Of a stretch of 64,000 nt of DNA, positions 7,434 to 60,955 are shown in pieces. The position numbers and the translations under genes were made by a program. Source of the stretch: Alishewanella jeotgali KCTC 22429 (GTDB lineage Bacteria; Pseudomonadota; Gammaproteobacteria; Enterobacterales; Alteromonadaceae); assembly GCF_000245735.1 (NCBI RefSeq), contig NZ_AHTH01000048.1, positions 186,001 to 250,000 on the forward strand. Reading direction: 5' to 3'. Position 1 is the first letter of the stretch; every line of letters starts with the position of its first letter. Under the pieces are notes generated by a model that did no database searches, had not been told where the DNA came from, and saw nothing but the letters and a program-made list of their open reading frames with translations.

Positions 7434-7460
7434 TTACTTGTCTCGTATAGTTTGCTTATT

Positions 7461-7494
7461 GCTGAGCTCATAAATAGCTATTTATGAGCTCAGC
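7461..7494. repeat. 34 bp perfect palindrome in the hisF-hisIE gap
   Basis: GCTGAGCTCATAAATAG (7461-7477) is followed directly by its exact complement (7478-7494), 17 + 17 bp with no spacer. It lies 28 bp before the hisIE start codon. It could form a strong RNA hairpin in the his message just ahead of hisIE, or be the scar of a mobile element. It has no T-tract. Confidence 0.7.
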
Positions 7495-7554
7495 ATAAAT
7501 GAGTGCTAACTCGCTTTTAAAGGAGCGAAGGCTACATCCAAAGTATCAAGCGAC

Positions 7555-7649
7555 GAGACCTGACTGCTAAGCAGAGCGTCTTTGGCATGGATGCCAAAGA
7601 GGAGCCTACATGGATGTATTTACGGCGTCTCTGCGTGTAGTCAGGTCTC
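7555..7649 (+). repeat. Structured dispersed repeat, copy A
   Basis: A 95 nt element whose ends, GAGACCTGACT (7555-7565) and AGTCAGGTCTC (7639-7649), pair perfectly over 11 bp. Inside, GCAGAG (7571-7576) pairs with CTCTGC (7629-7634). CTTTGGCAT-GG-ATGCCAAAG (7580-7599) forms a 9 bp hairpin. A conserved tail runs from 7602 to 7630 and includes GTATTTACGGCGTCT. Copy B at 60624-60720 shares the tail (26 of 29 positions) and the GCATGGATGC loop but has different, still perfectly paired stems. It lies in the hisF-hisIE gap, opposite in orientation to the his genes. The short reading frame through it is not convincing as a gene. Confidence 0.75.
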
Positions 7650-7693
7650 AAAGCCACGCCAAAGCTCTGTGCTCCGTTACCCGCTAAGACTCC

Positions 7694-7850
7694 GTACATT
7701 TTTTCTGCGACACGCCATAAACCATCCTTGGGGCTCGATTGTGAATGTCATCCATGACATTCACCTTGCAGGCCAGCAAAGCTGTCCAAATTCTTTCCTG
7801 AAGAATTTGTCCGGCCATCCATAGCCTCCAACGGTCGCAGAAAAAAGTAC
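7694..7850 (-). repeat. Structured dispersed repeat, diverged longer copy C
   Basis: A 157 nt element closed by TTTTTTCTGCGAC (7699-7711) and GTCGCAGAAAAAA (7834-7846), a perfect 13 bp stem extended by GTAC on both sides. Inside are three hairpins. GTGAATGTCAT-CC-ATGACATTCAC spans 7741-7764, CAAATTCTT and AAGAATTTG span 7787-7809, and GGCCAT-CC-ATAGCC spans 7813-7826. On the minus strand two loops read ATGGAT as in copies A and B. The segment 7712-7736 reads GAGCC, then AAGGATG, then TTTATGGCGT, matching their conserved tail. It is therefore read as a third family member on the opposite strand. Confidence 0.6.
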
Positions 7851-47156: not shown

Positions 47157-47336
47157 TACAGGCTGGATCCGAGAACTTCGTCTAAAGCTACTATAGCAAC
47201 TTTTTGCCTTGAGTTAACCGGGCAGGATCAATAAATAGGCGATTGCGCACTAAATCTGTACTCTGTATTTACCACTTTGTTCAAGATCTTGCGGCCAGAA
47301 GGATATTTTCCGTGATGCCTCACCGATATTGGTCAA

Positions 47337-47448
47337 GCCCTTAGCTGCGGTAGATTTTTCGTAACAGCAGCAGGGATGCTGCGGAGGCTGAAAGGGCACA
47401 GGGATGATCCTTGAAGCCGGTGGAGAAAATTGCTACCCAGCTAAGGGC
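47337..47448 (+). repeat. Structured element D, possible relative of the A/B/C repeats
   Basis: GCCCTTAGCTG (47337-47347) and CAGCTAAGGGC (47438-47448) pair perfectly over 11 bp and continue imperfectly through GGTAG/CTACC and ATTTTTC/GAGAAAAT. Inside is the hairpin GCAGCAGGGATGCTGC (47367-47382), then GGAGGCTGAAAGGGCACAGG and GATGATCCTTGAAGCC. The order (hairpin with GGGATG loop, GGAG-C-T, ACAGGGATG, closing GCCGGTG) parallels copies A and B. Sequence identity outside these motifs is low. The strand is given by analogy. Confidence 0.5.
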
Positions 47449-47481
47449 GCAGCACTGATCTGTGCGCTAAGTATCGGAACT

Positions 47482-47670: not shown

Positions 47671-47746
47671 TGGTGGATTGTACTGGGTTCGAACCAGTGA
47701 CCCCCGCCTTGTAAGGGCGGTGCTCTCCCAGCTGAGCTAACAATCC
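47671..47746 (-). tRNA. tRNA-Val (anticodon TAC), copy 1
   Basis: A 76 nt gene with encoded CCA. The acceptor is GGATTGT/ACAATCC, the D stem GCTC/GAGC, the anticodon stem CCGCC/GGCGG with loop CTTACAA, and the T arm is closed around TTCGAAC. The anticodon TAC reads valine GUN codons. All three intact copies are identical. The neighbouring gltX reproduces the valUXY-gltX linkage of E. coli. Confidence 0.97.
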
Positions 47747-47771
47747 ATGGGAGTATCGTAAATCGGGGCTT

Positions 47772-47837
47772 TGGTGGATTGTACTGGGTTCGACCCAGTG
47801 ACAACCGTCTCTTCGTAAAGAGCGGGCGGTGCTCTCA
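47772..47837 (-). pseudogene. Degenerate tRNA-Val copy 3 (5' truncated)
   Basis: Same organisation as copy 2: intact T arm region except TTCGACCC on the plus strand, acceptor 3' strand and CCA. The hairpin CTCTT-TACG-AAGAG takes the anticodon place. The 5' acceptor strand is missing. Confidence 0.75.
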
Positions 47838-47852
47838 ACGATTTTAAAAATT

Positions 47853-47928
47853 TGGTGGATTGTACTGGGTTCGAACCAGTGACCCCCGCCTTGTAAGGGC
47901 GGTGCTCTCCCAGCTGAGCTAACAATCC
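47853..47928 (-). tRNA. tRNA-Val (anticodon TAC), copy 2
   Basis: Identical to the other two intact copies, 76 nt with CCA. The start-to-start distance to copy 1 is 182 bp, showing that a unit of intact plus truncated tRNA was duplicated in tandem. Confidence 0.97.
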
Positions 47929-47953
47929 ATGGGAGTATCGCTGTGTAGAATAT

Positions 47954-48019
47954 TGGTGGATTGTACTGGGTTTAAACCAGTGGCAACCGTCTTTTCGTAA
48001 AGAGCGGGCTGTGCTCTCA
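47954..48019 (-). pseudogene. Degenerate tRNA-Val copy 4 (5' truncated)
   Basis: Keeps GAGAGCAC, acceptor 3' strand and CCA. The anticodon region reads CTCTTTACGAAAAG with a mismatch, and the T loop has TTTAAAC for TTCGAAC. More diverged than copies 2 and 3, as expected of a non-coding spacer. Confidence 0.75.
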
Positions 48020-48035
48020 CCGATACTTCTAAATT

Positions 48036-48111
48036 TGGTGGATTGTACTGGGTTCGAACCAGTGACCCCCGCCTTGTAAGGGCGGTGCTCTCCCAGCTGA
48101 GCTAACAATCC
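48036..48111 (-). tRNA. tRNA-Val (anticodon TAC), copy 3, promoter-proximal
   Basis: Identical 76 nt copy, nearest to the promoter at 48129-48156. It lies 183 bp from copy 2. Confidence 0.97.
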
Positions 48112-55533: not shown

Positions 55534-55722
55534 GCAGAAGTGTTCTCCGAAGTTGCCGTGCCCTGTATCAGCCCTTGAACCCAAGGTTCAAGGCGGAACG
55601 CCAATGGCCACCGTAGGCTTCCCGGTACTAGCCGGGCCTGCACAAAAGCGACGCAGAAACATCCCTTAATAAAACAATTATCGGCTCAGGGACATCGACA
55701 AAACACGAACAACCCAGAGAAC
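55534..55722 (-). ncRNA. ssrS: 6S RNA
   Basis: About 189 nt RNA that mimics an open promoter and sequesters sigma-70 RNA polymerase. Recognisable from the 5' part TTCTCTGGG, TGTTCGT and CCCTGAGCCGATAA. The 3' half has CCTTGAACCTTGGGTTCAAGG and the closing strand TTCGGAGAA. These match the E. coli 6S landmarks in order and spacing. It lies immediately upstream of fau. A TATACT box (55729-55734) is 6-7 bases before the proposed 5' end. Ends are estimates. Confidence 0.9.
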
Positions 55723-55728
55723 GCCCTC

Positions 55729-59427: not shown

Positions 59428-60616
59428 TGTCACCATCGTTGGCGCCGGTAGTGCCGGCTTAACCCTGGCGCTGTTATTGGCAGAGCAGGGCCTAAAGGTG
59501 GCGCTGGTGGAAAAGGGCGCTGAGCCACTGCCGGCAACCCCTGCCTATTTACGGGTAAGCGCCCTTAATCCGGCTTCACAACGGGTGCTGGCCCATTTAG
59601 GCGTGTGGGATGGTATAGCCGCGCAGGCCGCTGCTTATCAGCAGATGCAGGTGTGGGATGCCGACAGCTTTGGCCGCATTCATTTTGCCGCCGAGCCACC
59701 ACAGCCGGCAGATCTAGGCTGGATCTGCGATAACGAAGCGATTCGCCAGCAGCTGTATCAAAAAGTACAGCAACAGCCGGCGATCCACTGTTATTTCGCT
59801 GCCCAAATTCAGCAGTTAGTGCAATCGGAACGAGAGGTGCTGCTGCAACTGAGCAGTGGCGAGATCTTACTCAGCGAATTACTGGTTGGCGCCGATGGCG
59901 TAAATTCATACGTGCGCCAGCAGCTACAGTTACCCCTGACACACTGGGACTATCAGCAGGATGCGATAGTGGCGGTGATCCACTGCGACGAGCCACACCA
60001 GGCGACGGCGCGGCAGGTGTTTTTACCGACCGGGCCGCTGGCGCTGCTGCCGCTGCCGCATCCTAAGCATTGCTCTATTGTCTGGAGTGCTGAAACCAGC
60101 CGAGCCAGCGAACTGATGGCGCTGGATGATGCTGCCTTTGCCCGCGCCCTAACCGCTGCCAGCCAAAGTGTCTTGGGTTGTTTAACGCTGGCAACAGCGC
60201 GCAGTGTGCATCCGCTACGGATGCGTTATGCCAGTGACTGGGTACGTGGCCGTGTGGTGCTGGTGGCCGATGCAGCACATAGTATTCATCCGCTGGCCGG
60301 GCAGGGCATGAACCTGGGTTTAATGGATGTGACTGCCTTGGCTGAATTGTTAGGCAAACAACAGCAGGCGGGTAAACCACTATTTGCCCCCCGCGTGTTA
60401 CAGGCGTATCAGCGTTGGCGTAAGGCCGAAGCGCAAAGCATGATCGCGGCGATGGAAGCTTTCAAACGTGGTTTTAGTAATGAGCAGCCGGCATTAAAAT
60501 TTTTGCGCGGCGCAGGTTTACTGCTGGCAGATAAACTGCCTTTTGTTAAACAGCAGCTGATGGCACAGGCGCTGGGTAATAGCGGTGATTTACCGGCTTT
60601 AGCCAAACCAAATTGA
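59414..60616 (+). CDS. ubiI: Ubiquinone biosynthesis FAD monooxygenase UbiI/VisC
   Basis: Paralogue of UbiH responsible for the C5 hydroxylation. The chosen start, MQNLDVTIVGAGSAGLTLAL, aligns with E. coli UbiI; the frame also has an ATG four codons upstream at 59402. The protein has 400 residues with ADGVNSYVRQQL and VADAAHSIHPLAGQGMNLGLMD. It overlaps ubiH by 14 bp. Structured repeat copy B starts 8 bp after its stop. Confidence 0.95.
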   Translation: MQNLDVTIVGAGSAGLTLALLLAEQGLKVALVEKGAEPLPATPAYLRVSALNPASQRVLAHLGVWDGIAAQAAAYQQMQVWDADSFGRIHFAAEPPQPADLGWICDNEAIRQQLYQKVQQQPAIHCYFAAQIQQLVQSEREVLLQLSSGEILLSELLVGADGVNSYVRQQLQLPLTHWDYQQDAIVAVIHCDEPHQATARQVFLPTGPLALLPLPHPKHCSIVWSAETSRASELMALDDAAFARALTAASQSVLGCLTLATARSVHPLRMRYASDWVRGRVVLVADAAHSIHPLAGQGMNLGLMDVTALAELLGKQQQAGKPLFAPRVLQAYQRWRKAEAQSMIAAMEAFKRGFSNEQPALKFLRGAGLLLADKLPFVKQQLMAQALGNSGDLPALAKPN

Positions 60617-60623
60617 GAGCTCT

Positions 60624-60720
60624 TAACCGGATTAGTCTAAGCCAAGTCTTGAAGGCATGGATGCCTGAATGAAGCCTACAGGGAGGTATTTACGGCGTCT
60701 TGGCGTGATTAATCCGGTTA
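60624..60720 (+). repeat. Structured dispersed repeat, copy B
   Basis: A 97 nt element with TAACCGGATTA (60624-60634) and TAATCCGGTTA (60710-60720) pairing over 11 bp. GCCAAG (60641-60646) pairs with CTTGGC (60699-60704), and AGGCAT-GG-ATGCCT (60653-60666) is a hairpin. The tail at 60672-60700 differs from copy A at 3 of 29 positions. CTAAGC before the second stem is also shared. All three stems differ from copy A yet are perfectly paired, which is the pattern of compensatory change. It separates ubiI from gcvT. Confidence 0.75.
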
Positions 60721-60955
60721 CGGGCACTGAACCATATTGCTGTCATAAATTTGCCTTAGTTTTTTTGGTAACCCCGGCTGTCGCATTACAAAAAGTAATC
60801 CAAATTGGGCTGTTTGCTGGCGGGGGTATCGGGTATAATCGAGCAGTATTTTTTAGTCAGACTGGTAGCAATATTGCGTAATAGGCTGATAACAAAGGTT
60901 TATTAGCCAAGCTCAATATTAAGCTGCCGGCCCGCATAATAAACAGGAAAAAATA
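60721..60955 (+). promoter_or_regulatory. Leader and promoter region of gcvTHP
   Basis: 235 bp between repeat B and gcvT. TATAAT (60834-60839) is a good -10, with a weak TGTTTG at -35. A GcvA site could not be picked out. The leader was checked for the paired glycine riboswitch aptamers and the conserved core sequences were not found. Confidence 0.5.

Follow-up and report, generated by a model that had tools for sequence, protein, structure and literature searches.

Two kinds of described element bear on the repeats reported here, namely mobile palindromic repeats such as YPAL (also called RU-2) and RNAs that carry GGA motifs in hairpin loops, among which CsrB, CsrC, RsmY, and RsmZ are regulated sRNA genes with many GGA sites. 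According to the part of PMC2229807 that was available, YPAL is mobile, has target duplications of 3 to 26 bp, and uses targets located at or next to dyad symmetry. Ysr224 has been reported to be expressed and to be among the most prevalent annotated sRNAs (PMC9029176, in part), and motif matching led to the prediction that the Rfam family TwoAYGGAY binds CsrA (PMC4333381, in part). For CsrA itself, the available sections of PMC7652899 give the SELEX consensus RUACARGGAUGU, presented in a hexaloop closed by AC/GU, and describe a dimer that bridges sites 10 to 63 nt apart, best when the distance exceeds 18 nt; very stable stems are possibly unfavorable to binding. In the same vein, RsmN binds ANGGAN loops (PMC3791407, in part).

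The two repeats that we analyzed, copies A and B, lie in a 64,000-nt stretch of Alishewanella jeotgali KCTC 22429, hereafter the window, and had been singled out from its letters in a first-pass annotation, whose coordinates for both copies proved correct. Copy A occupies positions 7555 to 7649 on the plus strand, which is the strand carrying GGA in the loops (the GGA strand). The genes hisF and hisI, which are 473 bp apart, flank it, and it is antisense to both. Copy B was first described as a paired element at 60624 to 60720 (plus strand). With its imperfect inverted arms of 25 nt, which are 80% complementary, the approximate inserted unit extends from 60613 to 60731 on the same strand. Copy B starts 7 nt past the stop codon of a same-strand gene with an FAD-binding monooxygenase-type domain, and gcvT is found downstream.

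The outer 11-bp stems had been described as unrelated in sequence yet paired, and indeed complementarity is perfect both in A (GAGACCTGACT/AGTCAGGTCTC) and in B (TAACCGGATTA/TAATCCGGTTA); at a fixed register, the chance of such a stem is approximately 2.4e-7 for each copy. The shared 29-nt tail is identical at 26 of 29 positions, as reported, and a 23-nt tail pattern allowing up to 3 mismatches matched only A and B in the window and nothing in 100 shuffles. RNA folding z-scores were -6.7 for A and -5.6 for B. When folded alone, copy B has a minimum-energy structure that pairs the interior unlike A, and the common structure depends on the alignment.

A and B align with nine more copies of their own genome over a core of 64 columns with zero gaps. 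In the covariance model of this core, copy A (7571 to 7634, plus strand) reached 90.0 bits (E 1.4e-21) and copy B (60641 to 60704, plus strand) 76.0 bits (E 7.6e-18). The loop, the CTAAGC motif, and the tail that had been recognized as conserved are all shared, but the extent of conservation had been understated, as the 64-nt core also includes the inner stem and both hairpins. It starts with an inner stem of 6 bp, followed by hairpin 1 (an eight-pair stem), a linker, hairpin 2, and the closing side of the inner stem. Hairpin 2 is composed of a three-pair stem, mostly GCC/GGC, a five-base bulge (TTTAC or similar), and a second three-pair stem. In copy A, hairpin 1 (7579 to 7600, plus strand) harbors the loop ATGGAT at 7587 to 7592, inside CANGGANG, and hairpin 2 (7604 to 7626, plus strand) combines the stem GCC/GGC and the TTTAC bulge with another ATGGAT loop at 7610 to 7615.

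A third, diverged core (7706 to 7770, minus strand, 32.9 bits) lies within the repeat adjoining copy A. This neighboring repeat (7690 to 7850) has the inverted ends TTTTTTCTGCGAC/GTCGCAGAAAAAA at 7699 to 7711 and 7834 to 7846 and shows several GGA-loop hairpins on the minus strand. A perfect 36-nt palindrome (7460 to 7495, arms of 18 nt, no spacer) is located immediately upstream of hisI. Elsewhere in the window are a 6S RNA gene (55540 to 55723, minus strand) and three tRNA genes in a row with identical scores (47674 to 48111, minus strand). A second repeat with twin GGA loops is located at 47312 to 47461 (plus strand). It is akin in design to the core without being a copy of it, presenting two GGA-loop hairpins on another scaffold, and has 11 matches in its own genome, counting itself. 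This repeat resembles TwoAYGGAY, for which it gives the best score of its genome (34.3 bits), below the gathering score of 43. By visual comparison, 10 of its 11 matches lie at most 77 bp from a core match, some of these core matches being weak.

Only two copies had been known from the window, and a covariance-model search of the genome and its relatives had been proposed. Run on the own genome, on relatives, and on the class, the model of the 64-nt core retrieved many more. The own genome contains 35 core matches at E<=10, 15 of which exceed 60 bits. In a search of 60 genomes comprising the own genome and relatives (E<=0.01), the core was present in 40, i.e., in all 31 genomes of the genus (11 to 64 matches each) and in 9 of the 29 genomes outside it. 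Across the class sample, 44 of 274 genomes and 39 of 222 genera were positive (E<=1e-5, strict filters, counts per genome capped), and an exact pattern search of named genomes yielded at least 119 stretches. Among the matches listed (80 loci), we found Rheinheimera, Alishewanella, Alteromonas, Idiomarina, Stenotrophomonas, Lysobacter, Luteimonas, Marinobacter, Halomonas, Ectothiorhodospira, Allochromatium, Methylotuvimicrobium, and Pantoea. Local arrangements varied. One genome (G019) has an array of six cores with a spacing of about 118 bp (L081, 2863 to 3517) and a group of four cores spaced 216, 216, and 426 bp (L078, 4586 to 5507). In Stenotrophomonas genomes, two oppositely oriented cores form a composite unit (L310, 4295 to 4816, and others), and a 1701-bp query holding this unit gave 83 to 106 whole or partial matches per genome in five Stenotrophomonas-type genomes.

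The stems of the core covary. In the 11 own copies, 93.2% of the cells pair and double changes occur in 11 of the 20 pairs; in 26 copies from other families, the alignment of which was fitted to the covariance model, 95.0% of the cells pair and 16 of the 20 pairs show double changes. The covariation score of these 26 copies was 0.714; shuffles gave 0.178, and slid registers did not exceed 0.107. A measure counting further pair types showed no excess over shuffles in either the own-copy or the other-family set. At the best offset, the outer arms of 142 copies, which lie outside the model, were paired at 11.8 of 14 positions; when arms were exchanged among copies, this figure was 6.7. Covariation is thus strong, and the stems are paired.

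We then considered the non-Watson-Crick pairs of the outer arms, read on the GGA strand. G-U was found 159 times and A-C 37 times in 145 arm sets; these sets required at least 10 of 14 Watson-Crick pairs beside the core, a filter by which copies with internal loops (nearly all from the own genus) fall out, and derive almost wholly from genera other than the own. Arm copies are not independent, and the safer figure is the tally per genome, in which 41 of 57 genomes (grouped from handles and accession prefixes) leaned to G-U, 4 to A-C, and 12 to neither. The G-U to A-C ratio was 140:23 in the true register, whereas registers shifted by 1 to 3 positions gave 207 to 273 versus 154 to 211, a ratio of 1.1 to 1.5. 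Within the genus, the cores showed 23 G-U versus 2 A-C (72 distinct cores) and the CTAA-type outer stems 10 versus 5 (n=32, not significant), both counts being based on copies fetched by a pattern similar to one demanding GGA.

Because G-U exceeds A-C on the GGA strand, and barely does so in shifted registers, the GGA-bearing strand is the one that folds as a single strand and is kept by selection. Indeed, mutation of double-stranded DNA would have no such preference unless it were strand biased, and the orientation of the copies to genes is random. Of 82 copies in the genus, 8 lie inside ORFs of at least 100 aa; the other 74 are co-oriented with (30) or antisense to (29) tandem genes or lie between convergent (8) or divergent (7) ones, as counted from simple ORF calls with orthologous loci kept in. 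This random orientation argues against a selected mRNA role; selection acting while the element spreads accounts for it at least equally well. The proposal that the structure is under selection, its loops being conserved and its stems changing freely while staying paired, is therefore borne out by the double changes, the covariation score, and the G-U excess on one strand. The same annotation had suggested either an RNA or a single-stranded DNA hairpin recognized by a transposase; the selected single-strand fold that both imply is there, and the strand signal is compatible with either, singling out neither.

To document mobility, the first-pass annotation had suggested comparing orthologous positions, and empty sites are present for copy B in both closest relatives. 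Among 30 gcvT loci from the 31 genomes of the genus, the own genome alone has a core at site B, and one further locus (L121) gave a weak match of a different kind. In the two closest relatives by gcvT (G003 and G005; L115 and L116), the site is empty, carries 13 extra bases instead, and lacks the outer stem; copy B is flanked by AACCA on both sides. As the outer stem is absent from these empty sites, copy B is an insertion, arms included: the element inserts at intergenic sites and, at site B, brings its outer arms along. No palindrome was found at the empty site of B, the one site considered. At the 30 hisI loci, a core above 60 bits was found in 14 and a weak core only in two more, in both orientations with respect to hisI, and hisF and hisI nearly abut at the four loci inspected (L100, L103, L105, and L106). 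At a further site, 5' of a mannitol-dehydrogenase-like gene, three genomes carry a copy and three others lack it. A Stenotrophomonas long-arm site was cleanly empty in none of five strains, two of which show gaps that, by coordinates, still hold 386 and 133 bases.

Among 98 distinct 64-nt cores, CANGGANG was found in loop 1 of 95, in loop 2 of 89, and in both loops of 89; these cores were found by the model at loci not chosen by loop pattern (18 of 116 distinct cores, of other length, were omitted), although the model itself had been built from GGA-bearing copies. The distance between the two GGAs is 20 nt. Thus, 89 of the 98 cores have the anatomy of a CsrA/RsmA site, i.e., ANGGA in hairpin loops and two such loops at bridging distance. 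The own genome carries csrA. On balance, we lean toward the view that A and B represent a non-autonomous YPAL-type mobile repeat, the GGA strand of which is an RNA with a predicted CsrA/RsmA dimer site. Considering its parts separately, the GGA strand likely acts as RNA, and chances are about even that both hairpins, with their ANGGAY loops at this distance, are bound by one CsrA/RsmA dimer, as predicted from the motifs. Any transcript that crosses a copy in the appropriate sense would then gain a predicted CsrA site, and arrays of copies could act as CsrA decoys. The outer and inner stems would merely hold both loops in position, and we propose that the stem sequence is free because of this.

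Co-occurrence with csrA was uninformative as a test of this CsrA reading, since 40 of 44 core-positive and 195 of 230 core-negative genomes of the class sample gave a csrA match; of the four core-positive genomes without a csrA match, three are 67 to 88% complete and one (G254) is 98% complete. The sole reported expression that we met, that of Ysr224, concerns a model of the other strand, not of the GGA strand. Very stable stems, being possibly unfavorable to CsrA, also count against this reading. Finally, the unpaired bases T49, A52, C53, and G57 vary as little as the GGAs in the 98 cores, and CsrA does not explain this.

These invariant bases would fit if the core were a transposition signal, i.e., a pair of single-stranded DNA hairpins of the GGA strand recognized by a transposase acting in trans, with the loops, the TTYAC bulge, and GCGT as contacts and the likeness to CsrA sites coincidental. 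We consider this possible, if rather unlikely. The G-T mismatch is comparatively well tolerated in DNA, and given this the strand signal is in agreement with such a role, as are the random orientation to genes, the insertions seen at empty sites (site B and the mannitol-dehydrogenase-like site), and the near identity of copies within a genome. However, a transposase usually depends on the ends, and in this element the ends are conserved least. Moreover, the search for an autonomous partner among 19 hand-chosen ORFs between neighboring cores gave no match to a Pfam transposase: 16 matched other families and 3 matched nothing.

A third explanation, which we regard as improbable, is that of a cis-acting 3'-untranslated-region (3'-UTR) hairpin that stabilizes or ends upstream mRNAs. 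This was proposed for YPAL, which is said to be co-expressed with upstream genes and perhaps to affect RNA stability (PMC2229807, in part). The position of copy B just after a same-strand stop codon is in line with it, and several copies of genome G148 also seem, on rough gene calls, to come after stop codons. In the genus, however, convergent genes flank just 8 of the 74 copies, antisense copies make up half of those in tandem contexts, and no T-run was found 3' of copy A or copy B.

Beyond the core, the shells of the element differ. The genus has an "agcga-stem-ctaa...gtg-stem-gaagc" type, with stems varying between copies, and a GTACACTTTG type. In G142 and G244, the arms of different copies show a recognizable relationship, and where they differ, the changes are paired. 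M. buryatense (G307) has mostly a single shell. MITEs as a rule conserve their ends; here, terminal inverted repeats are conserved within the copies of G307 but not within those of G148. The 18 copies sampled in G148 (loci L191 to L203) are enclosed in long palindromes differing by locus, with perfect arms of up to 37 bp, inner stem included. Pairwise, these arms share at most 15 of 22 bases (mean, 8.9), and four copies with an identical 52-nt heart share just 4 to 9 arm bases. In the family of G148, 1 of 11 relatives searched, all from other genera, has the core (G340, 2 matches). ORF calls are unreliable in these GC-rich loci, where a Pfam domain was found in 1 of 7 long ORFs overlying elements. 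No core-free inverted repeat with arms longer than 17 bp was found in 65.5 kb of G148 loci, and unfilled targets are therefore lacking there. For locus-specific palindromes to arise around a shared heart, the element would have to insert by a route that builds inverted arms out of local DNA. What the family conserves is its heart, while its ends drift, and this pattern points to the heart as the part with a function.

It is very improbable that the outer stem is instead a host terminator or palindrome with the core inserted in its loop, the outer "covariation" being the host's own: the different long stems of G148, including those around the identical heart, and the dyad symmetry that YPAL targets are said to span or adjoin (PMC2229807, in part) speak for such a capture, but we reject it for B, whose empty site is without a palindrome, it is unlikely for G148, given the 65.5 kb without core-free palindromes, and the arms of G244 and G142 are related between copies through paired changes.

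Overall, the A/B family is real, structured, mobile, widespread, and partly known. What is new is its breadth, the twin-GGA heart in many shells, the identity of the selected strand, and a testable link to CsrA; in the literature searched, mostly outside subscription journals, we found neither a link of such repeats to CsrA nor a class-wide description of the core. YPAL and Ysr224, formerly separate catalog entries, are hereby joined into one class-wide family, and the question of what such palindromic repeats do narrows to one question of CsrA binding. As a doubtful extension, the family might be a class-wide selfish repeat with a putative CsrA/RsmA-dimer-binding RNA module as its payload; shells would be swapped or rebuilt per lineage or locus, and bursts would rewire the Csr network via scattered sites and decoys.

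How, then, does the family compare with known systems? Integron attC sites conserve their ends; the A/B type conserves its center, and attC was set aside on this anatomy. REP elements of the GTAG and CGTC types are likewise short, palindromic, and dispersed, with stems of 8 to 9 bp and loops of 4 to 5 nt in the CGTC type (PMC3733652, in part). We rejected them because A and B have a branched core in long arms and not a single short stem with a terminal tag. The sponge RNAs CsrB, CsrC, RsmY, and RsmZ share the GGAs in hairpin loops and the pairing of sites, but they are regulated sRNA genes with many sites (PMC4333381, in part), whereas A and B belong to a dispersed repeat with two. TwoAYGGAY, a member of the CsrC clan according to the Rfam output, also has two hairpins with AYGGAY loops; its scaffold is different, however, and copy A scores 22.3 bits against a gathering score of 43.

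Whether the repeat was already cataloged had been left open. Neither A nor B is matched by any Rfam family at its gathering score, but the core does match YPAL/RU-2 and, below threshold, Ysr224 (RF02770; TwoAYGGAY is RF01731). Ysr224 covers the same core, copy A reaching 40.2 bits (E 6.9e-8) where the gathering score is 70, and 20 class loci gave at most 38 bits. Its model follows the complementary strand and has loops that read TCC, both at copy A and in 12 of 12 among the matches listed for these class loci. By the G-U signal, this suggests that the Ysr224 model lies on the non-selected strand, and Ysr224 counts may be counting a repeat.

The likeness to YPAL/RU-2 is closest. Core A can be aligned with a 65-nt stretch of the 168-nt repeat of Y. 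pestis, the loops of which are CAAGGATG and CATGGATG (PMC2759123, in part). Within the full 168-nt fold this stretch forms the same hairpins as the core, whereas the 65-nt piece alone folds partly otherwise. YPAL is mobile and intergenic, and the A/B type likewise shows filled and empty sites. In the literature searched, YPAL is listed for Yersinia and Erwinia, and we found no description of its breadth or of its CsrA-type loops. The dyad symmetry of YPAL targets was not seen at the empty site of B (one site). An existing family therefore covers A and B by half: the core is that of YPAL and Ysr224, but size, shell, and score differ. YPAL measures approximately 168 bp and has its own shell, whereas A is 95 bp and B about 119 bp long, with other outer arms. 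Because of these differences in size and shell, we file the A/B family as a relative, and not a member, of YPAL.
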